Source of the DNA: a virus
Reading direction: 5' to 3' (one strand)
DNA length: 64,000 bases
IMG/VR virus record: IMGVR_UViG_3300008262_000188
Span: 1-64,000 of that record
In this document: positions 17,685 through 45,109 of the stretch, piece by piece
How the letters are laid out: the number at the start of each line of letters is the position of its first letter
Numbering within the stretch: position 1 is the stretch's first letter
Program-made: the position numbers and the translations under genes
The notes under the pieces: model-generated
The model's database searches: none
The model's input: only the letters and a program-made list of their open reading frames with translations
Told to the model about the DNA's origin: nothing

Positions 17685-18136
17685 TGGAGATGAGGGGAAT
17701 CGAACCCCTGTCCATATAACCTAAGCTAAAAGGTCTTCACACGTTTGGATACATTCAACATTTCAGCCACCTTACGGTGACAAAGACAAAAGGCTGCATG
17801 GTTGTATCAACCGATTTTTATGTCTGCCTGCACAAGTGAGAGGTCTTGTACTACCTCTGTATCAGTTTTTCTATGATCTCTAACAGTTCATCAAAACCTC
17901 TGCGTTTCAAAATAGATTTAGAGGATCCTCTATTAGGCTCTTAGGCTTCGAGAGCACAAGCTTCTTCAACGTCGATGAGAAACTCATCAGCGTTGTTGAA
18001 GATGTAATCAGCTTCAGCTAAGAGATCAGAAGTATTGTCTTCTGCGTTTAGTGTTCAATCGATTTTTAAAGAGGCCATCGATTAACCTCTACATGCGCTT
18101 TTAGTTTCAACTATATGTCGAAACCAGGGCACCCCC
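17685..18136 (-). ncRNA. ssrA: tmRNA (one-piece) with long tag reading frame
   Basis: The 5' end GGGGGUG (18136-18130) pairs with CAUCUCC (17692-17686) to close a 7-bp acceptor stem with A at 17685 as discriminator; CCA is not encoded. GGUUUCGAC near the 5' end and GGGGUUCGAUUCCCC at the 3' end are the standard tmRNA D- and T-arm features. An H-type pseudoknot before the tag (GAGG with CCUC, and AAUCGAU with AUCGAUU) matches PK1 of E. coli tmRNA. The resume codon GCA at 18045-18043 follows UAAAC, equivalent to UAGUC in E. coli. The frame runs 34 codons to UAA at 17943-17941 and begins AEDNTSDLLAEADY, ending VEEACALEA. Trans-translation with phage-supplied tmRNA is the expected role. Confidence 0.93.
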
Positions 18137-18269: not shown

Positions 18270-19700
18270 TTAATTGATTCCTCGTTTGTAAAATTTCTTC
18301 CAAGCTACGGCATCGTTTTTATCGTTTAATAAAGGCTGGTTCTTAATGTTTAAACTCGTGTTAAGCAAAATAGGTATCTTCGTTTTATCATACCACTGCT
18401 TTAGTAAATTGTACAAGCCGGAGTGCTGCGATTTGTTTACGGTTTGCACTCTGGATGTACCGTCATAGTGCACAACGGAAGGGATTTCTGCAGGACGTTT
18501 GCATTTTGTTGCGTATTGCATATAAGGTGACGGAAAATTCATATCAAACCACTCGTTAGCATATTCCTCCAAAACGACAGGAGCAAATGGTCTGAACTTT
18601 TCCCGTTGTTTGATTTCATTGACTTTGTCTTTAATAAAAGGATCTCTTGGATCAGCTAATATGCTTCTGTTGCCCAATGCTCTTGGTCCAAATTCCGCTT
18701 TACCATTAGCTACCGCAGAAATACCTCTTGTATTAAGATCGTTTAAGATATTTTGAATCGGATAATCTCCTTCTATGTTATAACCCAAATATGGAGTATT
18801 CCATTCAACGTGCTTTTTATAATATGCAGCAGCAGCACCAAGACTGCTTCCTGCGTCCCCTGGGTTTGGCATAATCCAAATATCATCAAACAAATCCCAA
18901 AGCAACGTATTTGCAGAGCAGTTTAGAGCACATCCTCCCATAAACACCAATTTATTCTTTTTTGTAGTCTTTTTTAAGAAGTGCATGAGTTCCAATAAAC
19001 GTTGTTGATATGTTTTTTGAACTGCAGCTGCTATATCAAATTTAGTTTCTTCTGTTATTGGTATATTCCAATCCCAAATTCCTTTATGAAAATTATATTT
19101 TTGACTGTGTATATTAGGAAAATACTCGTTTACTTCTTTGTATAAAGTGTTTGGATTTCCATACGCAGCCATTCCCATTAATATATATTCCTCTTTGTTA
19201 GCTTCTAAGCCAATTAATTGCGTGAACGCGCTGTAAAACAATCCAAAACTAAAAGGATAATTTTGTTTGAAAATATTTTTTATAGACGTTCCTTCCCCAA
19301 TCCAGCCAGTAGTGGTGTTAAATTCTCCTATAGAATCAACAACAACTATTAGAGCATCATCAAATTTACTAGTGAAATAACCAGATGAAGCATGTGAATA
19401 ATGGTGTCCAAAATTAACGACAGGAACATTTTTTATTTGTGGGTTTCTTTGAAATGCAGATTTTTTACCTAAACCACCTCTTATGAGTAGTCGCAGTTGT
19501 TTTAATAGAGGCTTTTCATAATAAGCAATTACATCGGGCCGACCGTACTTTAAAGCTTCGTTAATTATAGCGTCATTTAAAAACCAGTCATTTTTTATTT
19601 TGCTGTACCGCTCAGAATGAGCAGCAAATAAAATATGTCCGTTTTCTATAACAGTTATTCCTGCATCGTGAGCAGCTTCGTTTATTCCAAAAATAATCAT
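18270..19700 (-). CDS. NodU/TobZ-type carbamoyltransferase
   Basis: 476 residues. The N-terminal YrdC-independent, ASKHA-type domain begins IIFGINEAAHDAGITVIENG and has GHHYSHASSGYF near 98-109, the His cluster that binds carbamoyl phosphate/metal. GGCALNCSAN near 257 and the C-terminal segments AEFGPRALGNRSILADPRDP and NTSLNIKNQPL are diagnostic of the NodU/CmcH family. Family members carbamoylate sugars or antibiotics from carbamoyl phosphate via carbamoyl-AMP. It is somewhat short at the C-terminus compared with 550-600-residue bacterial members. The target may be a surface sugar or modified base; this is open. Confidence 0.85.
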   Translation of the reverse strand: MIIFGINEAAHDAGITVIENGHILFAAHSERYSKIKNDWFLNDAIINEALKYGRPDVIAYYEKPLLKQLRLLIRGGLGKKSAFQRNPQIKNVPVVNFGHHYSHASSGYFTSKFDDALIVVVDSIGEFNTTTGWIGEGTSIKNIFKQNYPFSFGLFYSAFTQLIGLEANKEEYILMGMAAYGNPNTLYKEVNEYFPNIHSQKYNFHKGIWDWNIPITEETKFDIAAAVQKTYQQRLLELMHFLKKTTKKNKLVFMGGCALNCSANTLLWDLFDDIWIMPNPGDAGSSLGAAAAYYKKHVEWNTPYLGYNIEGDYPIQNILNDLNTRGISAVANGKAEFGPRALGNRSILADPRDPFIKDKVNEIKQREKFRPFAPVVLEEYANEWFDMNFPSPYMQYATKCKRPAEIPSVVHYDGTSRVQTVNKSQHSGLYNLLKQWYDKTKIPILLNTSLNIKNQPLLNDKNDAVAWKKFYKRGIN

Positions 19701-22155: not shown

Positions 22156-22228
22156 GGGGGTATAGCTCAGTTGGTAGAGCGCCAGCTTTGCAAGCTGGAT
22201 GTCAGGGGTTCGAATCCCCTTGCCTCCA
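22156..22228 (+). tRNA. tRNA-Ala (TGC)
   Basis: Acceptor GGGGGTA pairs with TGCCTCC, anticodon loop TTTGCAA, T loop TTCGAAT, discriminator A. CCA is not encoded. It stands alone, 1.8 kb before the main array. Confidence 0.93.
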
Positions 22229-24049: not shown

Positions 24050-24124
24050 TGGCGAGTAGCTCAGTGGTAGAGCGGTCGGCTGTTAACCGATTGGTCGTAG
24101 GTTCGAATCCTACCTTGCCAGCCA
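24050..24124 (+). tRNA. tRNA-Asn (GTT)
   Basis: Acceptor TGGCGAG/CTTGCCA, anticodon loop CTGTTAA, T loop TTCGAAT, discriminator G, CCA encoded at 24122-24124. Confidence 0.93.
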
Positions 24125-24140
24125 CTTTAACATTGTTTTT

Positions 24141-24226
24141 GCTCGGATGGCGTAATGGCAGCCGCAACGGACTTAAAATCCGTTGGTCTAACGACCGTGA
24201 GGGTTCGAGTCCCTCTCCGAGTACCA
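24141..24226 (+). tRNA. tRNA-Leu (TAA)
   Basis: Class II tRNA: anticodon loop CTTAAAA, long variable arm, T loop TTCGAGT, acceptor GCTCGGA/TCCGAGT, CCA encoded. Confidence 0.92.
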
Positions 24227-24234
24227 CTTTCTAC

Positions 24235-24311
24235 GTTTCCATAGCTCAACTGGATAGAGCAACGCTCTTCTAAAGCGTAGGTTGCTGGTTCGATTCCAGC
24301 TGGGAACGCCA
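24235..24311 (+). tRNA. tRNA-Arg (TCT)
   Basis: Acceptor GTTTCCA/TGGGAAC, anticodon loop CTTCTAA, T loop TTCGATT, CCA encoded. Confidence 0.93.
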
Positions 24312-24320
24312 TTTTATAAT

Positions 24321-24393
<73 letters not shown>

Positions 24394-24401
24394 TTTTTTT
24401 T

Positions 24402-24496
24402 GCAAGGTTAGTATAACTGGATAGTACCGACAGACTTATAATCTGTGTGCCCTAGATGTGGGCCGAGCGTGGGTTCGATTCCCACACCTTGCACCA
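24402..24496 (+). tRNA. Class II tRNA with TAT anticodon (Ile by codon)
   Basis: Acceptor GCAAGGT/ACCTTGC, D stem GTAT/GTAC, anticodon stem ACAGA/TCTGT with loop CTTATAA (anticodon TAT, reads AUA), then a 22-base variable arm containing GCCC/GGGC, T loop TTCGATT, A73, CCA encoded. A long variable arm is normal for Leu, Ser and Tyr, not for Ile. Confidence 0.85.
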
Positions 24497-24520
24497 TTTT
24501 TAAACAAAACAATATTTTGC

Positions 24521-24605
24521 GGGTAGTTCGTATAGCGGCAATTACCGGAGACTGTAAATCTCCTGCCTTCGGGCTTCGCAGGTTCGAGTCCTGCACTACC
24601 CACCA
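24521..24605 (+). tRNA. tRNA-Tyr (GTA)
   Basis: Class II: acceptor GGGTAGT/ACTACCC, anticodon loop CTGTAAA, variable hairpin GCCTTCGGGC, T loop TTCGAGT, CCA encoded. Confidence 0.92.
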
Positions 24606-24655
24606 CTTCAGGAAGATTTGAACTCGATGTACAAATTGTATAAATAAACCAACTT

Positions 24656-24727
24656 CGAGTACGAGGAAGAAAGAAATCCGCCTGGTTTGGGACCAGGAAA
24701 TACTCGGGGCAGTACCGAGGTACTCGA
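24656..24727 (+). tRNA. Degenerate tRNA-Pro-like element (TGG)
   Basis: A complete cloverleaf can be drawn: acceptor CGAGTAC (24656-24662) with GTACTCG (24720-24726), D stem GGA/TCC, anticodon stem CCTGG/CCAGG with loop TTTGGGA (anticodon TGG), T stem CTCGG/CCGAG. C1:G72, A73 and the TGG anticodon are the bacterial proline identity set. But the D loop (AGAAAGAAA) lacks GG and the T loop (GGCAGTA) lacks TTC, so the normal elbow cannot form. No CCA. It sits three bases before tRNA-Gly. Confidence 0.6.
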
Positions 24728-24730
24728 TAT

Positions 24731-24804
24731 GCGGGATTAGTTTAATGGTAAAACAGGAGTTTTCCAAACTTCGGTTGGGAGTTCGATTCTCCCATCCCGC
24801 ACCA
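24731..24804 (+). tRNA. tRNA-Gly (TCC)
   Basis: Acceptor GCGGGAT/ATCCCGC, anticodon loop TTTCCAA, T loop TTCGATT, CCA encoded. Confidence 0.93.
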
Positions 24805-24809
24805 TTTTC

Positions 24810-24883
24810 AGACCTATAGCTCAGTTGGTTAGAGCAGTTCATTGATAATGAACAGGTCGTTGGTTCAAGTCCAACTAGGTCTA
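24810..24883 (+). tRNA. tRNA-Ile (GAT)
   Basis: Acceptor AGACCTA/TAGGTCT, anticodon loop TTGATAA, T loop TTCAAGT, A73, no full CCA. Confidence 0.92.
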
Positions 24884-24894
24884 CATTTATAATA

Positions 24895-24920
24895 GGCGGA
24901 GTTAGCTCAGCGGTAGAGCT
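24895..24920 (+). pseudogene. 5' fragment of a tRNA gene broken by the HNH gene
   Basis: GGCGGAGTTAGCTCAGCGGT and the following AGAGCT form the acceptor 5' strand and a complete D arm of a tRNA, then the sequence stops abruptly. No matching 3' half exists between 24921 and 25526. The tRNA identity is lost with the anticodon. Confidence 0.75.
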
Positions 24921-25468
24921 AATTTTTTAATTCTATATCTTTTATTATAAGATGAACGTTTGGTGTTTTTAATGTTCCGTCCACAAAATGTTTCAGTTTG
25001 TGAGTGACAATTTGGACATAACAATCTTAAATTCTCTAAAAAATTGTTATCAGAATTACCGTCTATGTGATCCAAATGCAAACTTAAACGTTTTCCGTTC
25101 CATTCTGTAATGCCACAGCAAAAGCATTTGTGCTTTGTTTTAAATTCTATTACACGTTTTAATGTCGAGGATTGGTTTATTAGTCCTTGCTCAGCTCTTA
25201 AAAGAGTTTCATTAAGAAATTGAAAATCTCTTTGACATTTATTACTGCAATATGTTCCAGTAGACGCATGACAAGAATACACAAACTCGACTTTACAATT
25301 TTTACAGTTGCTTTTAAATGAGGTTGTATTTTTATACTCTCTTTGCTTGTTATTATATGAAGCTGCACAAGATCGATTACAGAATTTTTTTAAACGCTCT
25401 TCTTTGCATTTGTTTTGAAAAAAAATACTAGTACAATTTTGACAAACTGATTCAATTAGATTAGGCAT
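24902..25468 (-). CDS. HNH homing-type endonuclease with zinc fingers
   Basis: 188 residues. Three Cys clusters in the first ~80 residues (CQNC.., CKNCKVEF, YCSNKCQRDF) are zinc fingers; the HNH core reads CFCCGITEWNGKRLSLHLDH then NFLENLRLLCPNCHSQT (about 115-165). This is the phage-type homing endonuclease layout. Its last six codons and stop (LALPLS) are read from the antisense of the tRNA 5' fragment at 24902-24920, so the gene invaded a tRNA. A CATAAATA box lies six bases before the ATG, suggesting late expression. Confidence 0.85.
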   Translation of the reverse strand: MPNLIESVCQNCTSIFFQNKCKEERLKKFCNRSCAASYNNKQREYKNTTSFKSNCKNCKVEFVYSCHASTGTYCSNKCQRDFQFLNETLLRAEQGLINQSSTLKRVIEFKTKHKCFCCGITEWNGKRLSLHLDHIDGNSDNNFLENLRLLCPNCHSQTETFCGRNIKNTKRSSYNKRYRIKKLALPLS

Positions 25469-25474
25469 GTATAT

Positions 25475-25482
25475 TATTTATG
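25475..25482 (-). promoter_or_regulatory. Late promoter-like CATAAATA
   Basis: Minus-strand box ending six bases before the HNH ATG at 25468. Confidence 0.45.
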
Positions 25483-25526
25483 AGAATAAGACCAAATATT
25501 TCAAAACAAATGGTCTATTTTTCAAA

Positions 25527-25602
25527 GCTCGGGTAACTTAGCGACTAAAGTACCTGCTTTACACGCAGGCTATCGTGGGTTTGAGTCCCACCCCGAGCAC
25601 CA
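25527..25602 (+). tRNA. tRNA-Val (TAC)
   Basis: Acceptor GCTCGGG/CCCGAGC, anticodon loop TTTACAC, T loop TTTGAGT, CCA encoded. Confidence 0.92.
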
Positions 25603-25609
25603 TTTTAAA

Positions 25610-25692
25610 GCTCATGTGGCGAAATTGGCAGCACGCGCCAGACTTAGGATCTGGTTCCGTAAGGAATGTGGGTTCGAGTCCCTCCATGAGCA
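25610..25692 (+). tRNA. tRNA-Leu (TAG)
   Basis: Class II: acceptor GCTCATG/CATGAGC, anticodon loop CTTAGGA, T loop TTCGAGT, A73, no CCA. Confidence 0.92.
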
Positions 25693-25710
25693 TATTTTAA
25701 TTAAATAAAA

Positions 25711-25795
25711 GGAAGGGTGGCAGAGTGGTCTATTGCAGCGGTTTACTAAACCGCCGAGGCGCAAGTCTCCGAGAGTTCGAATCTCTCCTCTTCCG
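25711..25795 (+). tRNA. tRNA-Ser (ACT)
   Basis: Class II: acceptor GGAAGGG/CTCTTCC, G73 as in Ser, anticodon stem GCGGT/ACCGC, loop TTACTAA giving anticodon ACT, T loop TTCGAAT, no CCA. Bacteria normally use GCT here; A34 is unusual. Confidence 0.85.
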
Positions 25796-25801
25796 TTTTT
25801 T

Positions 25802-25876
25802 GCTCCCATAGTGTAGCGGTTAGCACATCTCCCTTTCACGGAGGTAGCAGGGGTTCAAGTCCCCTTGGGAGTGCCA
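25802..25876 (+). tRNA. tRNA-Glu (TTC)
   Basis: Acceptor GCTCCCA/TGGGAGT, anticodon loop CTTTCAC, T loop TTCAAGT, G73, CCA encoded. Confidence 0.92.
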
Positions 25877-25882
25877 TTTTAA

Positions 25883-25955
25883 TACGGAGTAGCACAATTG
25901 GTAGTGCATCAGAATTTGGATCTGAGGGTTATAGGTTCGAGTCCTATCTCCGTAG
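25883..25955 (+). tRNA. tRNA-Gln (TTG)
   Basis: Acceptor TACGGAG/CTCCGTA, anticodon loop ATTTGGA, T loop TTCGAGT, G73, no CCA. The U1-A72 pair is typical of Gln. Confidence 0.92.
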
Positions 25956-25960
25956 TTTTT

Positions 25961-26008
25961 TGTTGTCTTTCAAATAGCTTAATTTAATTATTCGTACAAT
26001 GGGAACAA
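25961..26008 (+). repeat. 48-bp leader repeat, copy 1
   Basis: Identical to 26802-26849. It contains TTGTCT (25963-25968, 36 bases before the ATG) and the first three codons of the sulfotransferase gene. Confidence 0.9.
25963..25968 (+). promoter_or_regulatory. TTGTCT -35-like box
   Basis: 36 bases before the ATG at 25999, just after tRNA-Gln. Confidence 0.5.
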
Positions 26009-26793
26009 AACAGCAAGATAATATAAAACAATTTGCAATATTCTCTTTGCATAGGTCAGGCACGAATCTTTTGACGTGTTTATTGGATAACATTGATCAC
26101 GTTCAATGTTACGACGAAGTATATTGCAGCCAGGATGAGTTGAATCCCAACTATCTTCACACAAAACTTATTATATCTAAACTAGGAATAGAGCAATACA
26201 GTAGATTAGAAGAACAAAAAAAATCTAACCCATTAGCTTTTTGGAATACAATAGTAAGATTGAGTGATAAATCTACTAAAGCTGTAGGATTTAAAATATT
26301 TGCAGGGCACCACGACAAATTTTTAGAGTTTATAGCGAAATCTTCTAACTACGAAAAAATTATATTATTAAGAAATCCTATTGCAAGGTTTATTTCATTT
26401 ACTAGAGCAATCACTACGGGTTTATGGTTGCAAGTAATAGATGACGAACATACAACATTAACAAAGAAACTAATATTTAATCCTGATGAGTTTGAACTTT
26501 TTTTGAAAAAACACAATGAATCCTTTAATTGGTATTTGCATTTAGCTAAACAACAACCACATAAATATTTGATTACAACGTATGAGGACGTTGTAAGTAG
26601 AAAATCAATAAAACTCATTCTCGATAAGTTAACCATCAATTGTCCTCCCAAGTGTAGAATGTTTACAGATTTAGCAAAGCAATCGACTGAGCCAATTGAT
26701 AGTTGTTTTGTAAACTACGAACAAATGAAAGACTATTTAATCTCAAACCATCCGACTCTATTAAATAACCCCGGTTGCCCAGAACTTCCCTAG
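25999..26793 (+). CDS. Sulfotransferase, copy 1
   Basis: 264 residues, PAPS-dependent sulfotransferase fold. IFSLHRSGTNLLTCLLD at about 13-29 is the 5'-phosphosulfate-binding loop, and KIILLRNPIARFISFTRA near 118-135 is the 3'-phosphate-binding motif (R-N-P..R..S). It would transfer sulfate from PAPS to a sugar or other hydroxyl. A second gene with the same leader and a clearly related protein follows, so this is a tandem duplication inside the tRNA array. PAPS must come from the host. Confidence 0.8.
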   Translation: MGTKQQDNIKQFAIFSLHRSGTNLLTCLLDNIDHVQCYDEVYCSQDELNPNYLHTKLIISKLGIEQYSRLEEQKKSNPLAFWNTIVRLSDKSTKAVGFKIFAGHHDKFLEFIAKSSNYEKIILLRNPIARFISFTRAITTGLWLQVIDDEHTTLTKKLIFNPDEFELFLKKHNESFNWYLHLAKQQPHKYLITTYEDVVSRKSIKLILDKLTINCPPKCRMFTDLAKQSTEPIDSCFVNYEQMKDYLISNHPTLLNNPGCPELP

Positions 26794-26801
26794 CTTTTTT
26801 G

Positions 26802-26849
26802 TGTTGTCTTTCAAATAGCTTAATTTAATTATTCGTACAATGGGAACAA
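26802..26849 (+). repeat. 48-bp leader repeat, copy 2
   Basis: Exact second copy of 25961-26008, again covering the promoter-like box and the first codons. Confidence 0.9.
26804..26809 (+). promoter_or_regulatory. TTGTCT -35-like box
   Basis: 36 bases before the ATG at 26840; part of the duplicated leader. Confidence 0.5.
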
Positions 26850-27610
26850 GTCATCAAGATGATATAAAACAATTTGCAATATTTTCTCTGCATAGAACAG
26901 GTTCATCCTTATTGGTAGATATATTAGATCGTATTCCTTCGATTAAATGTTATTATGAATTATACAAACCGGATACAGAATATTCGGATCAGGAATGGAT
27001 AATTCAGCATGGAAGTACACATCAAAATTGGAAAGAACGAAACAAAGCTGAACCTTTAGCTTATTGGAACGAAATAGTAAAGCTGAGTAGTAATTCTAAA
27101 TTTAAAGCTATCGGATTTAAAATATTCTGGGATCAAAATCAAACATTATTAAAGTATATAGCTGATTCACCTAAGTATCAAAAAATTATATTATTAAGGA
27201 ATCCCATTGCGAGGTACATCTCGACGTTGAGAGCTAAAGCTACAGGAAAATGGTTTCAAATTAAGACTGAACCGACCGCAAGAAAACTAGTATTTGATCC
27301 TGACGAGTTTGAACTTTTTTTGAGAGATCATATCTGTGGAGCTCGGTATTATTTGCGAAAAGCAAAAGAATTTCCTGATAAATATTTAAACATAACATAC
27401 GAAGATGTTATTAGTAGAAATTCGATAAAAAACATTTTTGATAGATTAGAAATTAATGATTTTTCTGAGCATAAATTAACCACACAGTATGCAAAGCAAT
27501 TTATCGAACCAATCGACAGTTGTTTTTTAAACTACGACCAAATGAAAGACTATTTAATCTCAAATCATTCATCCTTATTGAATGAACCTGGTTGCCCAAA
27601 ATTTTTCTAA
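26840..27610 (+). CDS. Sulfotransferase, copy 2
   Basis: 256 residues, paralogue of the gene before it. IFSLHRTGSSLLVDILD is the 5'-phosphosulfate loop and KIILLRNPIARYISTLRA the 3'-phosphate motif. Both proteins end with nearly the same stretch (NYDQMKDYLISNHSSLLNEP here). The region after the first motif, which usually selects the acceptor, differs most, suggesting different acceptors. Both lie between tRNA genes. Confidence 0.8.
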   Translation: MGTSHQDDIKQFAIFSLHRTGSSLLVDILDRIPSIKCYYELYKPDTEYSDQEWIIQHGSTHQNWKERNKAEPLAYWNEIVKLSSNSKFKAIGFKIFWDQNQTLLKYIADSPKYQKIILLRNPIARYISTLRAKATGKWFQIKTEPTARKLVFDPDEFELFLRDHICGARYYLRKAKEFPDKYLNITYEDVISRNSIKNIFDRLEINDFSEHKLTTQYAKQFIEPIDSCFLNYDQMKDYLISNHSSLLNEPGCPKFF

Positions 27611-27621
27611 TCATTTTGAAG

Positions 27622-27627
27622 TTGTCT
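27622..27627 (+). promoter_or_regulatory. TTGTCT -35-like box
   Basis: 35 bases before the ATG at 27657. Confidence 0.45.
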
Positions 27628-27656
27628 TTTTAAAAAAATCTTTTAATGTACTAAAC

Positions 27657-27794
27657 ATGAAAACACTCATGGCTATTTTGTCGCTAGCAACTGTAATTGC
27701 TCTTTCTTCTTGTACATCTCCCAAAGCTTGCGTAAAAAATTCTTGTAAACCTGCTGATTGCAAAACCGTTTGTAAACCAGTCCGTTCTAACTAA
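27657..27794 (+). CDS. Tiny Cys-rich lipoprotein (45 aa)
   Basis: MKTLMAILSLATVIALSSC is a lipoprotein signal with lipobox ALSSC (lipidated C19). The mature part is only about 27 residues and has four more cysteines in CVKNSCKPADCKTVCKPV. The frame is open further upstream but would overlap the sulfotransferase; ATG 27657 gives the clean signal peptide and a TTGTCT box 35 bases before. Outer-membrane phage lipoproteins often block superinfection; that is inference. Confidence 0.55.
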   Translation: MKTLMAILSLATVIALSSCTSPKACVKNSCKPADCKTVCKPVRSN

Positions 27795-27805
27795 ATAATT
27801 TTAAT

Positions 27806-27881
27806 CGCGATGGGCTAGGCCAGGTGGTCTGGTGTGTCTCATAAGCACACAAATTGGGTTCGAGTCCCAACGTCGCTACCA
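27806..27881 (+). tRNA. tRNA (CAT), initiator-like Met or Ile2
   Basis: Acceptor CGCGATG/CGTCGCT has a C1.U72 mismatch with six further pairs; D stem CTAG/CTGG, anticodon stem TGTGT/GCACA, loop CTCATAA, T loop TTCGAGT, CCA encoded. The unpaired 1:72 position recalls initiator tRNA, but the three G:C pairs of initiator anticodon stems are absent. Confidence 0.85.
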
Positions 27882-27887
27882 TTTTAA

Positions 27888-27959
27888 GCCGGGTTAGCAC
27901 AGTGGTAGTGCGACGGTTTTGTAAACCGTAGGTCATCGGTTCGACCCCGATACCCGGCT
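27888..27959 (+). tRNA. tRNA-Thr (TGT)
   Basis: Acceptor GCCGGGT/ACCCGGC, anticodon loop TTTGTAA, T loop TTCGACC, discriminator T, no CCA. Last tRNA of the array. Confidence 0.9.
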
Positions 27960-28000
27960 CCCTCGTATAAAATTACAAAGGTTTGATTAAATACTTTATT

Positions 28001-36077: not shown

Positions 36078-37241
36078 ATGAAAGAACTATTCCATGTAAT
36101 GGCTAAGCCTATAGGCCCTTTGTGTAATATAGGAGAAAAAATGTTTCCGAAAAACGAAACGTTTAAAATGAAAGAAGAACTTTTAGAAGAATATATAAAA
36201 CAGTATATAGATTCTCAGCCAACTAAAGAAGTTATTTTTACCTGGCAAGGTGGAGAGCCTACAATGCTGGGAATTAAATACTTTGAAAAAATTATTGAAA
36301 TGCAACAACAATACGCCAAAGGGAAAATTGTTTCAAACAGCATTCAAACTAACGGTACTCTATTAAACGATGACTGGGGAAATTTTTTAAAGCAACATAA
36401 TTTTTTAGTCGGTCTCAGTATAGATGGTCCTCCGAAACTACACGATGCATACAGAGTAGATAAAAAAGGACTTCCAACATACGAAAAAGTAATAAAAGGA
36501 CTACGTGTATTGCAAAAGCATGAAATTGAATTTAACACTATAACTGTTGTTAATAATATTAATTCAAAAAAACCACTAGAAGTTTATAATTTTTTAAAAA
36601 AAATTGGCTCAAACTTTATACAATTCATTCCTTTAGTTGAACGGCTACCTGATGTTAAAACTAATCAATTAAGTTTTGATCTAGCTTTTCCACCAACAAT
36701 AAACGACGAGAAAAATTTGCCCGTTACCGAGTGGAGCGTTAAACCTACTCAGTATGGAGAATTTTTAATAACGGTTTTCGATGAATGGTATAAAAAAGAC
36801 AAAGGTAAAGTGTTTGTTCAAATTTTTGATGTAACTTTAGGTAATTGGTCTGGACTGCAGCCGAATAGTTTGTGTGTATTTAGTGAAACGTGCGGTAAAG
36901 CAATTGCTTTAGAGCATGATGGCACAGTTTATTCGTGCGATCATTATGTTTACCCGTCATATAAATTAGGAAGTATAACATCATCATCTTTAGGAGATAT
37001 GATTAGCTCAGAACGGCAAAAAAAATTTGGAAACGACAAGCGGGACACCTTACCAAATTATTGTAAACGCTGTGATGTTAGATTTGCCTGTCATGGTGAA
37101 TGTCCCAAGCATCGTTTTTTAAGAGCACCTGGCGGAGAGTACGGTTTAAATTATTTATGCTCTGGTTACAAAAAATTTTTTCATCATATTGCACCAAAAA
37201 TGCAAACGTTAACAAATGAATTATTGCAACCACTCACATAA
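36078..37241 (+). CDS. Anaerobic sulfatase-maturase homologue lacking two radical-SAM cysteines
   Basis: 387 residues, matching anSME (AtsB/ChuR) enzymes along the whole length: FHVMAKPIGPLCN at the start, TWQGGEPTMLGIKYFEKIIE, SIQTNGTLLNDDW, FLVGLSIDGPPKLHDAYRVD, FIQFIPLVER, and the C-terminal SPASM cysteines (CGKAIALEHDGTVYSCDHYV, YCKRCDVRFACHGECPKHRF). Family members oxidise a sulfatase Cys or Ser to formylglycine. Here C16-N-I-G-E-K replaces C-N-x-x-C-x-Y-C-x-Y-L-E-K: about seven residues with the second and third SAM-cluster Cys are gone, in frame. It may be inactive. The sulfatase gene converges on it with seven bases between. Confidence 0.85.
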   Translation: MKELFHVMAKPIGPLCNIGEKMFPKNETFKMKEELLEEYIKQYIDSQPTKEVIFTWQGGEPTMLGIKYFEKIIEMQQQYAKGKIVSNSIQTNGTLLNDDWGNFLKQHNFLVGLSIDGPPKLHDAYRVDKKGLPTYEKVIKGLRVLQKHEIEFNTITVVNNINSKKPLEVYNFLKKIGSNFIQFIPLVERLPDVKTNQLSFDLAFPPTINDEKNLPVTEWSVKPTQYGEFLITVFDEWYKKDKGKVFVQIFDVTLGNWSGLQPNSLCVFSETCGKAIALEHDGTVYSCDHYVYPSYKLGSITSSSLGDMISSERQKKFGNDKRDTLPNYCKRCDVRFACHGECPKHRFLRAPGGEYGLNYLCSGYKKFFHHIAPKMQTLTNELLQPLT

Positions 37242-37248
37242 AGATAAC

Positions 37249-38676
37249 TTAAGGGGTTACTCTTGTGTTTACACTATAATTTAAAAGAGTTCTTAAGCTA
37301 GTCAACTCCTCTATTGTTTGTTTTAAATGGTCTTGGTCTATCAAATTTGTTGTTTCAGAAGAATCTGCTTCTAAATCATATAATGCAATTGGATGGTTAC
37401 CTACCAGTACATCCCCAGCAAATATTAATTTCCAGTTTAAGTAATAAATCGAGCTTGCTCCTCCCCATTCGTTTTTCGTTTCGTTTATACAACAGTGAGC
37501 ATGATTGATTAATAAATGCTTTCTGTTAGGCTCAAGCGAATTTGTTGTAAGAAGAGGAATTAGACTTTTCGCATCCAGCATTTCATCTTCGTTAATCTGT
37601 ACTTCAATAAGATCTAAAAAGGTTGGTAAAATATCCATAGCACAAACTAAATCTTCACACACTTTTCCTTGCAAAAATTTAGAAGGATAATTAACAATCA
37701 AAGGAACTCTCACTCCTCCCTCGTAGATTGTGCTTTTCCCGTCTCTTAAATGCATATTTCCTTTATCGCCACTGACAGCTCCGTGATCCGAACTGAAGCA
37801 TATGACTGTGTTTTCTTCAAGACCTCTCGTTTTTAAAATTTTACGTAATTCTCCTAAAAGCACATCTGTTTCATAAACCATGTCGTCTCGTCTATTAATA
37901 CACGTATTTAATATCTCGTTCCCTCTTATCGTTTGAGGGGGGTCGTGAGGAGAATGTGCTCCATCACAACAAAAATGCATAAAAAACGGTTTTGCCATAT
38001 CGGTTGTATCTAAAAATTTTTCTACTTTAGTTAAGAGAGTCTCTCCAATTTTTGATAATTCAAAATTAGGATCAACATAATCAAGCCAATTTAAAAAATG
38101 CTGTTCATTGCCTCCACCAACACATTTTTTTTGTCTAGCAAATTCTATTGCTTGCTGACCTCTGATTAAGGTTTTAGGGTCGCAAGTTGGAATATTATTT
38201 TCCAAAAAGATTAAAGGAAGCCATTGATGACCACGAGGTATGATAAACGAATAATCAAATCCCCAATTAGATGGACCATCTACCATTGGAGCTGTCCAGT
38301 CTATTTCTCCTGTTTCTGTCTTGTTGTATAATCCTCCTATTCCCGTCTTGCCAAAAAGACCAGTTCGATAACCATTTTGTTGCAAAATATTCGCTAACGT
38401 TTTTTGATTAGGAGTAATAGAAGATGAGACATCAAATCCCCACTCTCCTTTATTGCCTAATCTTTGTCTATTAGGATAATTGCCGGTCAGAAGCGAATAT
38501 CTAGCAGGAGCACACAATGCTGCTGTCGAATGAGCGTTTGTAAAAATTACTCCACCGTTTGCTAAATCTTCTACGTTTTTTGTTTTAATTTTACTGTAAT
38601 TATTGTAACATGAATAATCCCCTATTCCTACATCTTCAGCAATAATAAATAAAAAGTTAATTGGGGATTTTGTCAT
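37249..38676 (-). CDS. Formylglycine-dependent sulfatase
   Basis: 475 residues, alkaline-phosphatase fold. CAPAR at 55-59 is the Cys-type C-x-P/A-x-R signature that is converted to formylglycine; ALCAPARYSLLTGNYPNRQR is textbook. The metal-binding acidic pair near 14-20 (AEDVGIGD) and CFSSDHGAVSGDKGNMHL near 300 (Asp-His) are present. No signal peptide, so it acts inside the cell or on the virion. It removes sulfate from a carbohydrate; substrate unknown. The adjacent maturase homologue makes a functional pair likely. It overlaps the GT8-like gene by 20 bases. Confidence 0.9.
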   Translation of the reverse strand: MTKSPINFLFIIAEDVGIGDYSCYNNYSKIKTKNVEDLANGGVIFTNAHSTAALCAPARYSLLTGNYPNRQRLGNKGEWGFDVSSSITPNQKTLANILQQNGYRTGLFGKTGIGGLYNKTETGEIDWTAPMVDGPSNWGFDYSFIIPRGHQWLPLIFLENNIPTCDPKTLIRGQQAIEFARQKKCVGGGNEQHFLNWLDYVDPNFELSKIGETLLTKVEKFLDTTDMAKPFFMHFCCDGAHSPHDPPQTIRGNEILNTCINRRDDMVYETDVLLGELRKILKTRGLEENTVICFSSDHGAVSGDKGNMHLRDGKSTIYEGGVRVPLIVNYPSKFLQGKVCEDLVCAMDILPTFLDLIEVQINEDEMLDAKSLIPLLTTNSLEPNRKHLLINHAHCCINETKNEWGGASSIYYLNWKLIFAGDVLVGNHPIALYDLEADSSETTNLIDQDHLKQTIEELTSLRTLLNYSVNTRVTP

Positions 38677-39847
38677 TTTGTGTAAGATTTTTTTGGACTT
38701 TTGTTAAATTTGAAATTAGCTGCTCTTTAAAATTTGAATTTACGTTATAATGTTTAGGAATTTCCGCAACTTTAGTTAGTATGATATTTTTCAAACAGCT
38801 TAGTTCGTACGTTTTCCACAATTCTAAAGCATGTAAAGGAATGTTATCTGTATGTTGCCAAGGTTTATACTGCCCATTAAAATGTATTATGTTAGCTTCT
38901 TTAAACTCTTTTTGAATTTCGGGAGTCGGATGAAGAAGATAATAATAACCACAACCGTAATCAGTCAAGTTCCACGATTTTGGTATTATTCCAACTTTGT
39001 TAAAAAACACAAAATTTAAAAGTCCTTGATCGTTATGAAAAAAAGTATGAAATTTTTTCTGAATAACGACACAATCTTTACAAATTTGCTGGATATTATT
39101 TCGTCTATATTCGGTAAGATCAAACATTAATACTCCAGCATTAAAATGTATTGCGTTTTTTGTGCTTAAATCAGTACAATAGTCTAAGTAATTAATAGGC
39201 GTATTTAATGTACGAGAGCATTCGATAAACCATTTAAACCACTTATCCACATAATATTGAAGAATAGTTTTTCCTCTAATTGGTATCCATTCTTGTTGTT
39301 CGTTAGGTCCTAACGTTGAAAGTTTAAAATCCCAGCACTGAATGGCAGGCCATTCGCACGCATATAAGCTATGCTTAGTTGTTTTGCTCATGTCGTATAC
39401 TAGTTGAAACAAAGATTTTACCGGTTGCTTAAAAACTAAATCTAAATCAATCTGTAACACTAATCCATCTAGTGTAGGCCAAATTGTATCCAAAAATAGT
39501 CTATAATACACAGAACAGGTTTGCAGAGTATTTCTCGATCTACTGAACGGATAGTTTTCAACCAAAAATTTATAAATTTCCTTGCATTCAGTCGGAACAT
39601 GTTTATAATTAAAAATTATCGTTGGAAAAATAGACGTAATATAGCTTTGTATGGCAGGCAAATTAGATAAATTGCCATCATAGCAAACAAAAAATTCTAG
39701 CGTATCTGTTATATTTAATAAATCATTGCTGCAGCGTGACGGATTTGTGTATTGTTTGTGTAACGTGTAAATGTTATTTACAACAGTTAGAAATTGATCT
39801 ATATATGTTTCATCAAAAGAGACAGCTATTTGTAGATTTTGCTTCAT
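38657..39847 (-). CDS. GT8-like glycosyltransferase
   Basis: 396 residues, GT-A fold. It starts with IAVSFDETYIDQFLTVVNNI (a nucleotide-binding strand plus helix), has LVLQIDLDLVFKQPV near 150 with the metal-binding D-x-D, HFNAGVLMFDL near 235 (GT8 acceptor-side Asn/Gly motif), and NDQGLLNFVFF later. Retaining transfer from a UDP-sugar is expected. First of four sugar-related genes reading left from 42602. Confidence 0.7.
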   Translation of the reverse strand: MKQNLQIAVSFDETYIDQFLTVVNNIYTLHKQYTNPSRCSNDLLNITDTLEFFVCYDGNLSNLPAIQSYITSIFPTIIFNYKHVPTECKEIYKFLVENYPFSRSRNTLQTCSVYYRLFLDTIWPTLDGLVLQIDLDLVFKQPVKSLFQLVYDMSKTTKHSLYACEWPAIQCWDFKLSTLGPNEQQEWIPIRGKTILQYYVDKWFKWFIECSRTLNTPINYLDYCTDLSTKNAIHFNAGVLMFDLTEYRRNNIQQICKDCVVIQKKFHTFFHNDQGLLNFVFFNKVGIIPKSWNLTDYGCGYYYLLHPTPEIQKEFKEANIIHFNGQYKPWQHTDNIPLHALELWKTYELSCLKNIILTKVAEIPKHYNVNSNFKEQLISNLTKVQKNLTQNDKIPN

Positions 39848-39855
39848 TTAGTTAA

Positions 39856-40710
39856 TTACTTTATATGAGTTAAAAGGCTACAAAAGCTCATTTTGTTCCT
39901 ATCGTAAAAAGCTAGTTCTGTTTGATAAAGCACATTAAACATATCAACCAACTCTTTCGTAAAGAAACTCATAGCATCAAATTTAGTTATTTTTAAAACA
40001 TTTCTTAATTCAGCTACCGTGTAATCACACATACGTTTCTTGCTGCAGTCAAAATCGAAACGATCAGAACAGTTGGTTGCTAATTTCAAACAACAGCTTT
40101 TATAATTCCACGCTTCTGTTAATCTATCTGCTATTTCTTCGAATAATATTTTTTCTCCCGCCATATCATATAACGATCGTAAATTAGCGGGGTCGTGAAT
40201 TAATTTTCCATCAGGCAACCAAAAGTCCGGAAGAAGATAAAAGACCGCATGTGTTTGTTTAATTAGAAGTTCTTCAAAAAACAAAAAGGACTCACCAGTA
40301 GTTATAGGAAAAAATCCATCAAAAATTTCAATCTGCGAGTTCTCCGAAAAAAACCCCACATTGTATATATGCTCTATAAATTCTCTAAAAGTGTTCGTGT
40401 TTCGATTAATTTCAGGAGTAGGTGAATCAATCGCGACATATTTATCTAAATACAATGAAACAATTCGGTGATATGGATTTCTACCAAAAAAGACTATTTT
40501 GTGATTTTTATAATAATCTACATCTTTATAGTTTGGTTGGTTTTTATAAAAAACCTCGTAAATTTGATGTGTAACATCGTCGTTTCCACCATTATCAAAA
40601 AAGCTTCCGGAGCTATCTAAGTGCATTATTATTTCTTTAAGACACGTAGCTCCACATTTTTGTCCCCAAAACACTAAAACTTGTTGTTGAGTTAATTCAT
40701 GACATTTCAT
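39856..40710 (-). CDS. Sulfotransferase-like protein
   Basis: 284 residues. VFWGQKCGATCLKEIIMHLD near residues 12-31 occupies the place of the 5'-phosphosulfate loop (Lys and Ser/Thr present), and IVFFGRNPYHRIVSLYLDKY near 66-85 is a good 3'-phosphate motif (R-N-P-Y-x-R-x-x-S). Similar in its motifs to the protein at 47697. Acceptor probably a glycan. Reads left, nine bases upstream of the GT8-like gene's start. Confidence 0.6.
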   Translation of the reverse strand: MKCHELTQQQVLVFWGQKCGATCLKEIIMHLDSSGSFFDNGGNDDVTHQIYEVFYKNQPNYKDVDYYKNHKIVFFGRNPYHRIVSLYLDKYVAIDSPTPEINRNTNTFREFIEHIYNVGFFSENSQIEIFDGFFPITTGESFLFFEELLIKQTHAVFYLLPDFWLPDGKLIHDPANLRSLYDMAGEKILFEEIADRLTEAWNYKSCCLKLATNCSDRFDFDCSKKRMCDYTVAELRNVLKITKFDAMSFFTKELVDMFNVLYQTELAFYDRNKMSFCSLLTHIK

Positions 40711-40723
40711 TTCAAACGTTTGG

Positions 40724-41581
40724 TTATAGTATTTTTACTTTATCTAATTGTTCCATTAAAAGCAACGCTATAGACTTAACAGCATTTACGTCAGTTAACT
40801 CTTTGATTAAAGAAGTTATATTGGATTTATTTATACGTTCTTCTCCTAATAATAAATCCAACAAAGATTTCGCATTTTCGTATTTTACATTATATTGATC
40901 TTGAATACAAGAAATCATTTCATTTACTGCTAACTGGTCATTTAAATCCGAAATTCCTCCTTTATAAAAGTTTACTACACACTTATGGACTACAGCCATT
41001 TTCATTTTTTGTAAAAATAAAAGTTTAATCCATTGATAATCTGAAGCAATTGTTAGTTGTTCGTTAAATAAGCCGCAAACATCAAAACATTCTTTAGAAG
41101 CCAATAAGGCTTGATGACAAAACGGCATCAAGCCCATAAGGATTCGTTCATCAAATTCCGATATTTTAAAAATTTTATCGAGTTTTTGTATACTAGGGTC
41201 GATTATTTTCGCATAACCTACAGCAAAATCGGACCGATTTTGCTGTATAGCGTCGAGTAATTCTTGTATACAAAAAGGTTCTAACCAATCATCAGATCCT
41301 AAAATTAATAAGAACTTACCTTTCGATTTCCGAATTGCATAGTTTAACGCAGGATAAATACCAGGTGCTGATTCATATAAGATACGTATATTATGTTGCG
41401 GATTAGCTAACATATAACTGTCAATAACATTATTAGTTCCATCTGTTGACTTTCCTAACACAATTATGTGTTCTATATGCTTATATGTTTGGTTAGCTAC
41501 AGAATTTATGCATCGCTTAATTACAGACTTACTGTTTTTAGCAGCAGTGATTACCGTTACAAGTTTAGGCTGAATAGTCAC
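40724..41581 (-). CDS. GT2 glycosyltransferase
   Basis: 285 residues. VTVITAAKNSKSVIKRCINS at the start, SVANQTYKHIEHIIVLGKST, and LLILGSDDWLEPFCIQELLD near 100 (D-D of the GT2 nucleotide/metal site) are typical. Later CHQALLASKECFDVCGLFNE and ASDYQWIKLLF give the acceptor/catalytic Asp region. Inverting transfer of one sugar to a growing chain. Confidence 0.82.
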   Translation of the reverse strand: MTIQPKLVTVITAAKNSKSVIKRCINSVANQTYKHIEHIIVLGKSTDGTNNVIDSYMLANPQHNIRILYESAPGIYPALNYAIRKSKGKFLLILGSDDWLEPFCIQELLDAIQQNRSDFAVGYAKIIDPSIQKLDKIFKISEFDERILMGLMPFCHQALLASKECFDVCGLFNEQLTIASDYQWIKLLFLQKMKMAVVHKCVVNFYKGGISDLNDQLAVNEMISCIQDQYNVKYENAKSLLDLLLGEERINKSNITSLIKELTDVNAVKSIALLLMEQLDKVKIL

Positions 41582-41587
41582 TCCTAA

Positions 41588-41794
41588 TTATTTTTTATTT
41601 TTTGTAGTAGATAGTATCTCATTCAATATGTTTTTCAGAGTCGTATTGCTGTGATTTTTCGTAGTTTTTTCTTTGTACAACTTTTTAAATAGTTCTTGAA
41701 GAGCAATGCTAAATGTTTTGGTATATTTTTTATTTAATTCCGCTTTTAATATAGTTAATATTTCTTTCTTATTATGGTTTACAATGGTTTTCAT
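41588..41794 (-). CDS. Small Lys/Thr-rich protein (68 aa)
   Basis: MKTIVNHNKKEILTILKAEL..., basic helical, unrecognised. It lies between two glycosyltransferase genes with 6- and 13-base gaps, so it is part of the operon. Confidence 0.45.
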   Translation of the reverse strand: MKTIVNHNKKEILTILKAELNKKYTKTFSIALQELFKKLYKEKTTKNHSNTTLKNILNEILSTTKNKK

Positions 41795-41807
41795 AAATTA
41801 AATGGTG

Positions 41808-42602
41808 TTAACAATTATATAAAGAAGTTAAATGTTCAAGCTGAAATAAGCGATCTGATATATTGCCGGTTAAGTACGGATGGTAACAATAACACTCATC
41901 GATTGCCCACTTAGGTGGATTTGTCCACCTTGTTATCAATCCTCTATGAAGACCAACTATCGAAACGTCTCTTATGTTGATATTTTGTGAAGGATGTTTT
42001 TTTGAAGGCTGATCGATTAGAGAAATAGAAGCAACTTTAGAAAAAATCCACTCATTGGTTGCTATTTGATCGTCTATTAGCTTGGACGTATTTTTTATAT
42101 GATTTTGTATTATATTATTAAAAAAATTTTTAGTATTTTCCTTATATTTTATTACAAAAAACCCACAACACAATACAAAACCGTATTTTTCTGCTAGGTG
42201 CTTGGGATATTCGTTTCCAGTTGAATATATTACATCTTGTTCAAAGCAACTTAGTAAAGGTATTATATTTTTAATCCAAAAGCAATCAACGTCGGTATGT
42301 ATTAACGTTTTTTTTGAACTTGTAAAAATAGAGTTAATAATATCTAAACGAATTGCCCAGAATTCTGGTTTGCAAGAGACAACATATTTAAAATAAATGC
42401 ATGGAATGCATAACTTCTCGATTTCTTGTTTTGTTTTTTCATCTAAGCAAACGACAATCAAATTATTTAACTCGTGGGTTTTCCAAAATTTGTAAAATAT
42501 TCTAAATATTTCAATATATTTGAAATCAACGAACGTTATAACAACGACATCTTCTTTAATTTTATTAGTAATGGCTGTTATTTCGTTTGCGCTTATTTTC
42601 AT
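41808..42602 (-). CDS. GT77-like nucleotide-diphospho-sugar transferase
   Basis: 264 residues. The first strand VVVITFVDFKYIEIFRIFYK and the core KTLIHTDVDCFWIKNIIPLL with D-x-D (DVD) fit the GT77/PF03407 group; CGFFVIKYKENTKNFFNNII and DDQIATNEWIF follow in the right order. A sugar is transferred to protein or glycan. It abuts the clpC gene by one shared base, so the two may be co-transcribed. Confidence 0.6.
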   Translation of the reverse strand: MKISANEITAITNKIKEDVVVITFVDFKYIEIFRIFYKFWKTHELNNLIVVCLDEKTKQEIEKLCIPCIYFKYVVSCKPEFWAIRLDIINSIFTSSKKTLIHTDVDCFWIKNIIPLLSCFEQDVIYSTGNEYPKHLAEKYGFVLCCGFFVIKYKENTKNFFNNIIQNHIKNTSKLIDDQIATNEWIFSKVASISLIDQPSKKHPSQNINIRDVSIVGLHRGLITRWTNPPKWAIDECYCYHPYLTGNISDRLFQLEHLTSLYNC

Positions 42603-45109
42603 TAAAAATAATTCTTTTTACGTTGTTTTTTATTTTGATTTTTTAATAGAGTTATATTATTTTTATTGTCAGCCGATACGGTCGCAATTACTGTTTCTTT
42701 GTTCTTTATAGCACCGCTTAAGATTTTTTCGGCTATTGCATTTTCCAAATAAGTTTCAATCGCTCTTCTAATCGGACGAGCGCCATATTCGTTTTTAGAA
42801 CCCTTTTCTGCAATAAATTCTACAGCTAACTCATCAAGAATTAACGTAATTTGTTTGTTTTCTTTTAATCGATTAATTAAACACAAAGCCTCTAATTGAA
42901 CTATTAATTTAATGTTTTCTGTAGTTAAAGATTTAAAAACAACAATGCTATCCATTCGATTTAAAAGTTCTGGCTTAAAAAAAGACCTAACTTCGCTCAT
43001 AGTTTTTTCTTTCATTGTCTCATAATTCGTGTTTGGTTCATTTTTTACTCCAAATCCCAAGTTAGTTTGTTTTGAAGCAAAGGTAGCTCCAACATTTGAA
43101 GTGAGAATTACAATTGTATTTTTAAAATCTATTTTTCTACCAAGCGAATCCGTAACAATTCCTTCTTCGAATATTTGCAATAACAAATGTAGAGCATCAG
43201 GATGAGCTTTTTCTATTTCATCAAATAGAACTACAGAATAAGGATTTTTTCTGACTTTCTCTGTTAATTGTCCTCCTTCTTCATGACCGATATAACCAGG
43301 AGGAGATCCTATTAATCTGGAAACTGAAAATTTTTCCATATATTCGCTCATATCAATTTGAATAAGCGAATCTTTATTGCCAAAAATTAATTCAGCAATA
43401 TTTTTTGCTAAAAATGTTTTACCGACTCCTGTAGGACCTAAAAATAAAAAAGTGCCTATAGGACGTTTTGGATCTTTTAAATCCGCTCTAGCTCTACGAA
43501 TTGCTGTACTCACAGCTTTTATTGCTTCCTCTTGACCGATAATTCGCTTTTCTAGAGTTTGTTCTAACTGTAATAATTTTTCTGCTTCCTTTTCATCGAT
43601 TCTCGACAAAGGGATTCCTGTCCATTTAGATAATACAGTTATAATATCCTCTTTATTCACCGTAACGATATTTTCTTTGTTAGTTTTCTTCCATTTGTTT
43701 AGAGCTTCAGCTAACGATTCAGTAGCTCTACGCTCTTGATCTCTCGTAGCTGCGGCCTTTTCAAACTCCTGATTTTTAATTGCTTCTTGTTTTTTAGCTT
43801 TTAATTCTGTAATAGAATTTTCTAAGGTAGTAAAATCTTGGGGCTTTATTGTGGAGTTAATTCTTGCTCTAGATCCTGCTTCATCGATTAAATCGATTGC
43901 TTTATCTGGCAAAAATCTATCAGAAATATATCTATCCGACAACAGTGATGCTGATTCTAGTGCCTCGTCTGTATATATAACTTTATGATGCTCTTCGTAC
44001 TTATGTTTGATTCCTTTTAAAATCTGAATAGCGTCATTGACGCTCGGAGCCTCAATTTTAACTTGCTGGAACCTTCTTTCCAGCGCAGTATCTTTTTCTA
44101 TATACTTTCTATATTCATTTAACGTAGTTGCTCCAATGATTTGAAGTTCACCTCTACTTAAAGCAGGCTTAAAAATATTAGAAACGTCCATTGACCCTGA
44201 AGCGGATCCTGCTCCTACGATTGTATGTAGCTCGTCTATAAACAAAATAACATTTCCGTTTTTCTTTACTTCATTCATTACAGTTTTCAATCTTTCTTCA
44301 AATTGACCTCTATACATAGTTCCTGCAACCAATAAAGCTAAATCTAATGTAATAACTTGTTTATTTAACAGTAACTCAGGAACATTATTTGATATAATTT
44401 TTTGTGCTAATCCTTCAGCAATAGCTGTTTTGCCAACACCAGCTTCTCCTATTAAAACTGGATTATTTTTTGTTCTTCTGCAAAGAATTTGAATAGTCCT
44501 TTCGATTTCATTTACTCTACCTATAACAGGATCGAGCTTTCCGTTTTTTGCTAATTCTGTTAGATCTTTTCCGTATGTTTTAAGTGCTGTAGATTTTTTT
44601 GATGAGCTTGATTTTTGAAAATTTTCTTGACCAGCTAGTACAGGTTCATTGCTTTGATAGTTCGGATCGATCTCTTTTAGTATTTGCTCTTTTGCTTTTT
44701 CGTAATTAATATTAAACTCTTGCTGTAGAATTGTTGCAGCAGCTCCCTCAGTTTCTTTCAATAATCCTAGCAATAAATGTTCCGTTCCAACATATGTATG
44801 GCCCATTTTTTTAGACTCTTTTTCCGCTAAATGTAAAACCTTCTTAACTCTAGGTGTAATCGGGATATTCTCTTTTTTAGAATTTAGTAGCGAGTTATTA
44901 TTTTCAGAAGAATTATTTTTAATTATCTCGTAAACAATTTCTATAGTTACTCCTAACTCTTGTAATACTTTTAATGCTAATCCTTGACCTAGTTTTAAAA
45001 ATCCTAGCAACAAGTGTTCTGTTCCTATGTAAGTGTGATTTAAATTTTCAGCTTCTTTTCTTGCTAAAGCTAAGGCTTGCTGAGCACGTGGAGTAAAATT
45101 TTGAGACAT
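42602..45109 (-). CDS. clpC: ClpC-type AAA+ unfoldase
   Basis: 835 residues, a full ClpC. Two Clp_N repeats (about 1-75 and 78-150, both with TYVGTEHLLLG-like cores), AAA1 with GEAGVGKTAIAEGLA near 210 and ALERRF near 335, a middle coiled coil with KAKKQEAIKNQEFEKAAATR (the UVR/M-domain type of ClpC, shorter than in ClpB), and AAA2 with GPTGVGKTFLAKNIAE near 550. NLGFG near 660 is the hydrophobic loop that docks onto ClpP, so it can feed a protease. Phages rarely carry this. No clpP is in the window, so host ClpP would be used. Confidence 0.9.
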   Translation of the reverse strand: MSQNFTPRAQQALALARKEAENLNHTYIGTEHLLLGFLKLGQGLALKVLQELGVTIEIVYEIIKNNSSENNNSLLNSKKENIPITPRVKKVLHLAEKESKKMGHTYVGTEHLLLGLLKETEGAAATILQQEFNINYEKAKEQILKEIDPNYQSNEPVLAGQENFQKSSSSKKSTALKTYGKDLTELAKNGKLDPVIGRVNEIERTIQILCRRTKNNPVLIGEAGVGKTAIAEGLAQKIISNNVPELLLNKQVITLDLALLVAGTMYRGQFEERLKTVMNEVKKNGNVILFIDELHTIVGAGSASGSMDVSNIFKPALSRGELQIIGATTLNEYRKYIEKDTALERRFQQVKIEAPSVNDAIQILKGIKHKYEEHHKVIYTDEALESASLLSDRYISDRFLPDKAIDLIDEAGSRARINSTIKPQDFTTLENSITELKAKKQEAIKNQEFEKAAATRDQERRATESLAEALNKWKKTNKENIVTVNKEDIITVLSKWTGIPLSRIDEKEAEKLLQLEQTLEKRIIGQEEAIKAVSTAIRRARADLKDPKRPIGTFLFLGPTGVGKTFLAKNIAELIFGNKDSLIQIDMSEYMEKFSVSRLIGSPPGYIGHEEGGQLTEKVRKNPYSVVLFDEIEKAHPDALHLLLQIFEEGIVTDSLGRKIDFKNTIVILTSNVGATFASKQTNLGFGVKNEPNTNYETMKEKTMSEVRSFFKPELLNRMDSIVVFKSLTTENIKLIVQLEALCLINRLKENKQITLILDELAVEFIAEKGSKNEYGARPIRRAIETYLENAIAEKILSGAIKNKETVIATVSADNKNNITLLKNQNKKQRKKNYF

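Follow-up and report, generated by a model that had tools for sequence, protein, structure and literature searches.

The window analysed here, a stretch of 64,000 nucleotides, makes up most of the 69,126-base virus record of an uncultured T4-like phage. T4-like families are matched by a UvsW-type helicase, a primase and an RNA ligase/tail-fibre protein, with about 28–32% identity to named phages for the helicase and the primase. On the minus strand, at positions 17685-18136, lies a complete one-piece tmRNA gene of 452 nt. This gene had been proposed by the initial annotation, and ARAGORN returned the same coordinates. It also matches Rfam RF00023 over the full model (positions 1-374) with a score of 111.6 bits (E 9e-43), the cut-off being 47, and its minimum free energy fold has a z of -4.2 relative to shuffles. 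A carbamoyltransferase gene (18270-19700, minus strand) adjoins the tmRNA gene; in the syntenic region of G001, the contig with the closest related tag, none was seen between the flanking genes. Fifteen tRNA genes are clustered at 24050-27962, and a tRNA-Ala is found at 22156. A further block, at 36078-42602, encodes radical SAM/SPASM, sulfatase, glycosyltransferase and sulfotransferase-like proteins, with surface-sugar modification as a possible function.

The tRNA-like domain of the tmRNA is intact. Its 5' end GGGGGUG (18130-18136) pairs with CAUCUCC and contains the alanine identity pair G3-U70, and its 3' half, delimited by the RF00023 alignment and the sequence (17685..17713, minus strand), comprises the T arm GGGGUUCGAUUCCCC and the acceptor strand. 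The CCA 3' end is not encoded, the discriminator A being followed by AUA; many bacteria add CCA enzymatically. Pseudoknot 1 (PK1) occupies 18057..18092 on the minus strand, limits that are approximate and come from the same alignment. The tag reading frame of 34 codons, AEDNTSDLLAEADYIFNNADEFLIDVEEACALEA, covers 17944..18045 (minus strand) and is closed by a UAA stop at 17941-17943. We consider it likely that the phage has here a functional tmRNA of the usual one-piece type, with a tag template enlarged to 34 codons.

Reading frame and composition of the tag

The initial annotation had claimed that the resume codon and the pseudoknot fix the tag frame, and several observations agree. The resume codon GCA at 18045 lies 11 nt downstream of PK1, a spacing also known for E. 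coli tmRNA, in which U85 and A86 occupy positions -5 and -4 and A86 is the main determinant of the frame (PMC2481249). The Rfam model aligns the GCA region with high posterior probability. Furthermore, in codons 1-24 all 5-7 nucleotide differences from the relatives L085, L086 and L109 fall at third positions, so that these codons behave as protein-coding. A resume codon placed differently in relatives would have changed the picture; U at -5 and A at -4 are kept in the window tmRNA and in 73 of 73 relatives. The frame of 34 codons, running from the resume codon to UAA as annotated, is thus supported by the PK1 spacing, the U/A pair, the Rfam posterior and the third-position pattern. ARAGORN itself reports a tag of 24 residues (EADY...), whose start is too late and is ruled out by the position of the resume codon and by conservation. 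This program shortens tags of this type by 10 codons.

The peptide is acidic, with 11 D/E and no K/R/H, contains one Cys and has CALEA as its C-terminus, in line with its first description. Since the commonest length of tmRNA tags is 10 (PMC11915505), its size is unusual. Judged from its letters, the tag resembles a short tag of the usual type (AEDN...YALAA) interrupted by about 24 codons. In the AlphaFold prediction, residues 5-17 and 19-33 form helices (mean pLDDT 81), the second helix being of lower confidence, and the predicted helix is amphipathic (hydrophobic moment 0.38 versus 0.18 ± 0.09 for shuffled peptides, p 0.02). Neither a Pfam search nor a fold search with the tag gave any match. 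A profile match in the PDB to the TPR hairpin of BepA was weak (E 0.03) and was taken as chance, and a prohead-protease motif (LxE) in LAEAE was dropped, relatives having LAQ or LTE there.

A family of long tags with variable ends

Relatives were gathered by pattern and protein scans of IMG/VR followed by RF00023 searches of the records. This look for related phage tags, which the initial annotation had recommended, yielded 73 distinct tmRNAs, counting the one in the window; their homologous tags span 32-45 codons and all lie on uncultured phage contigs. Tag length is therefore a trait of the family. Among 50 further tag-bearing contigs checked, 48 carry a tmRNA over the Rfam cut-off, and the other two are consistent with contig ends or with the strict limit used. 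Two of the search patterns had themselves fixed residues of the tag, and identities were therefore calculated again from those rows alone whose selection did not depend on the codons concerned. For codons 12-20 (n = 27) the residue identity is 95% and the codon identity 74%, so the peptide is kept better than its codons in this part, and for codons 1-10 (n = 51) the values are 71% and 49%. Across 52 tags the residues A, Y and A at positions 12, 14 and 19 are invariant, and L, E, I, F and N are nearly so.

The tmRNA genes of the family look mosaic: L120 and L161 are 93-96% identical at both ends and 75% identical in tag codons 1-24. Comparisons of this kind (e.g. L120 with L161, and L001) suggest recombination within the tmRNA gene. 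Unrelated long tags, as called by ARAGORN, were seen on other ClpC-bearing phage contigs, namely GNNSTHIFNQYPLVGNTQTQYAVAA, GKNTHIFNHYPMVEVSQNQYAIAA and GNEFDIDENFLDTASVEVGTGEVAFA on L110, L111 and L130 (records G010, G023 and G041), and large phages may often have long tags. On record G041 (380343 bases) the Rfam cut-off is exceeded by two tmRNA genes, at 82619-82990 and 327939-328335.

The long-tag family is known here from uncultured virus contigs only. A first degenerate pattern run against about 85,000 GTDB species genomes gave no tag match. A second pattern gave 30 stretches in species genomes, none with a tag-like frame of the long-tag family; a scan of these stretches for tmRNA-like tag frames retrieved a single unrelated frame of 27 codons (L241). 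No homologous tag was obtained by a profile search of 793 genomes of Pseudomonadota and Bacteroidota, for which 5 of 5 phage records served as recovered positive controls. The absence of the tag from these pattern and profile searches of bacterial genomes speaks against a host origin. Among 50,697 phage records tblastn found no homologous tag, and blastn of phage records gave no match.

The C-termini of the tags vary within the family. LAA is the end in 60 of the 73 tags, and the other 13 end in LVA, MVA, LTA, LFA, FAA, YAA, LAV, LLT, CLA, MFV or LEA. The ALEA end given in the initial annotation in place of ALAA is genuine: LEA occurs only in the tag of the window and in its closest relative found, that of G001 (tag AELDNSDLFAEAEYIFNNASEFLVTADEAYSLEA, ending SLEA), and a sequencing error is unlikely as its source given this sister contig. 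A DNA pattern search for further LEA tags gave chance matches only. The GAA codon for the penultimate Glu (17947..17949, minus strand) is shared with the G001 tag. The window tag ends Glu-Ala and lacks the terminal Ala-Ala of the ssrA degron of ClpXP, i.e. it has no LAA-type C-terminus, a feature of ClpX degrons that does not define a tmRNA. ClpX depends mainly on the terminal Ala-Ala, and replacing the penultimate Ala raises the KM of E. coli ClpXP (PMC7652416), which is why LEA is probably a weaker ClpX signal.

Contig G001 is syntenic with the window in the block at 8-21 kb, where its tmRNA has the matching position, and protein identity in the block shared by G001 and the window record (G000) is roughly 33-77%. 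The two tmRNA bodies nevertheless fall in different clades (p-AU 4e-5), and segment-wise identities look mosaic. This could mean that LEA was kept through recombination of the tmRNA body or that it was gained twice. Either history argues against mere drift, under which LEA would be one more sporadic end, like LVA, MVA, LTA, LFA, FAA or MFV, and the C-termini of phage tags would be loosely constrained. Nevertheless, we regard drift as a serious possibility, somewhat short of an even chance: the 13 departures from LAA are of many kinds, the ends change at least 8 times on the tmRNA-body tree, and no clear tie links them to phage Clp genes, non-LAA ends being present in 4 of 13 contigs with such a gene versus 5 of 29 without.

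Hairpins within the tag template

Three hairpins are predicted along the template, all on the minus strand, and the GAA codon of the LEA end lies outside them. Hairpin a (CAGAAG-ACAAUA-CUUCUG, 18027..18044) starts inside the resume codon and is called by RNAalifold, with compensatory pairs 6-15 and 7-14. Hairpin c (UUAGC-UGAA-GCUGA, 18008..18021) is called by RNAalifold and backed by pair counts. Hairpin b (17963..18002), with the outer arms UCUUCAAC and GUUGAAGA and the inner stem GAUGAG-UUU-CUCAUC, comes from the minimum free energy fold, pair counts, the synonymous-codon test and RNAalifold in a subclade. In this subclade of 25 sequences RNAalifold calls all three hairpins with 5 compensatory pairs, and pair 6-15 is found as A-U, C-G and U-A. 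On the tmRNA-body tree the type of this pair (U-A, A-U, G-C, C-G, G-U or broken) changes at least 14 times. For hairpins a and b, 52 tags show 28 double-sided pair changes versus 8.7 ± 2.4 when shuffled and at most 12 when slid; for hairpin c, there are 24 versus 11.2 ± 2.1 when shuffled and at most 1 when slid. As the rows are related by descent, these shuffle counts are not probabilities. With the full diverse alignment RNAalifold calls hairpin c alone, not a or b, so these two are best supported in the main subclade; outside it, many rows have a disrupted hairpin a.

The choice of codons points in the same direction as the pair changes. When synonymous codons were drawn for an unchanged peptide, the native RNA folded more stably than the draws over codons 14-31 in 66 of 68 tags and over codons 1-8 in 62 of 68, with a median z of -1.7 in both cases. 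The tags of L149 and L150 reach 45 codons and have an extra stretch, DSVVDFFNG; in L149 the extra codons form a long added hairpin. Covarying hairpins along the whole frame, the synonymous-codon test and this added hairpin would all be expected if the long tag were mainly an RNA device, with hairpins that were inserted into the template for stability, folding or protein binding and by chance left the frame open, and a peptide that is largely a by-product between the AEDN start and an LAA-like degron. We find this explanation possible, if on the unlikely side, for it does not account for a peptide that is better conserved than its codons between codons 12 and 20, nor for the invariant and nearly invariant residues. 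As read from the alignments, the tag template is doubly constrained, by a conserved peptide and, in the main subclade, by three hairpins backed by compensatory changes and codon choice. In the literature cited here on tmRNA and Mollicute tags, we found no description of structured tag templates. This dual-coded, family-wide template is more surprising than the ALEA end itself.

Clp genes and the fate of tagged products

A candidate partner for the tag is encoded about 24 kb from the tmRNA, at 42602..45109 on the minus strand, according to Pfam and motif analysis. This intact-looking, full-length ClpC-type AAA+ unfoldase of 835 aa has the Pfam domains Clp_N, AAA, AAA_2, ClpB_D2-small and UVR, with two AAA modules, two Walker A/B sites (GEAGVGKT, GPTGVGKT, ILFIDE and VVLFDE) and an LGF tripeptide at residue 684, a putative ClpP-docking motif. 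We take this tripeptide to be at the place where ClpP-docking loops lie. The protein thus has all domains, both Walker sites and the LGF of ClpC unfoldases; unlike these, it is phage-encoded and has no ClpP on the same record, the 69-kb sequence containing no detectable gene for ClpP or SmpB. The closest ClpC found is that of G001 (73%). Among 42 tag-bearing contigs, most of them fragments, ClpC occurs in 7, a count inflated by the several contigs that were found via ClpC, and ClpP in 6, never both together; SmpB was found in none of the 42, and neither of the adaptors ClpS and SspB in 22 tag-bearing contigs. Records G064, G065, G066, G067, G075 and G079 belong to long-tag phages with a ClpP-family protease instead of ClpC. 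Large phage contigs bearing ClpC often have a tmRNA as well: in 15 of 50 such records, mostly fragments, one scored above the Rfam cut-off.

The tag may direct stalled products to a different protease. Points in favour of such re-routing are that LEA is shared with the sister contig, that changes of the penultimate Ala raise the KM and that the phage possesses a ClpC with LGF. Points against it are the weak tie of the tag to ClpC, present in only 7 of 42 tag-bearing contigs, and the lack of a clear association of non-LAA ends with phage Clp genes. The long tag in itself is no sign of re-routing, since length and acidity are family-wide and most relatives end in LAA. In its most elaborate version, which we hold to be quite unlikely, the tag would be a dual-coded module, a chain of RNA hairpins with a conserved helical peptide recognised by a specific partner (the phage ClpC, an adaptor or another host factor), through which these phages would send stalled translation products down a proteolytic pathway of their own, LEA excluding host ClpX.

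A Lon-type degron has a precedent in Mollicutes: the tag of Mesoplasma florum exceeds its E. coli counterpart in length, has NYAFA at its end and is read by Lon (PMC9382460). The hydrophobic aromatic stretch YIFNNADEFL of the phage tag would fit this explanation. It is however improbable, given that the LAA end is kept in 60 of 73 phage tags, unlike the Mollicute end, and that ClpC or ClpP is present in some of these phages; none of the 73 tags ends in NYAFA, that of the window ending in CALEA. Finally, that the window tmRNA is a degenerate or non-functional relic, as its missing CCA and merely moderate Rfam score could suggest, is very improbable in view of the full model match including G3-U70, the T arm and PK1, the open tag frame under purifying selection, the compensatory base pairs in the template and the common enzymatic addition of CCA.

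Trans-translation of the ordinary kind with host SmpB is the most likely function. During infection, the tmRNA would be charged with alanine and, using SmpB of the host, would release ribosomes that have stalled on mRNAs cut short by cleavage or otherwise truncated. The long acidic tag would be added to the product, which would then be destroyed by a Clp machine. The hairpins probably make the long template compact and shield it from nucleases, the ribosome opening them while reading. Our best guess for LEA is that it is tuned to the phage ClpC, which would dock on ClpP of the host, or that it makes turnover slower.

In its fold, the placement of the resume codon, the U/A at -5/-4, the alanine identity pair and an AxDN-like start, the window tmRNA resembles E. 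coli ssrA (RF00023, tag ANDENYALAA), and tags among its relatives end in YALAA like that of E. coli. It differs by its 34 codons versus about 10, the predicted helical insert, the template hairpins and the penultimate Glu. Like the tmRNAs of the mycobacteriophage Bxz1 group, Wildcat, Bacillus phage G and Melnitz-like phages, it is carried by a phage in which no SmpB gene is detected and probably relies on host SmpB; the tmRNAs of the Melnitz type are two-piece, whereas this one is one-piece. With mf-ssrA of Mesoplasma florum it shares an extended tag, a lineage-specific terminal change and a proposed co-evolution with a protease, although the sequence is different, the NYAFA/Lon end is absent and the phage family mostly ends in LAA. 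The Mollicute tag read by Lon is the nearest precedent for a lineage that changed both the length and the end of its tag.

Tags of tmRNA are usually treated as short and unstructured degrons. In this family they are about three times longer, the peptide and the RNA folds are both under selection, and the ends vary by lineage. These phages therefore offer a natural system for asking which roles tags may have beyond ClpX, how a ribosome resumes when a hairpin starts within the resume codon itself, and whether phages couple their tmRNA to a Clp unfoldase of their own.
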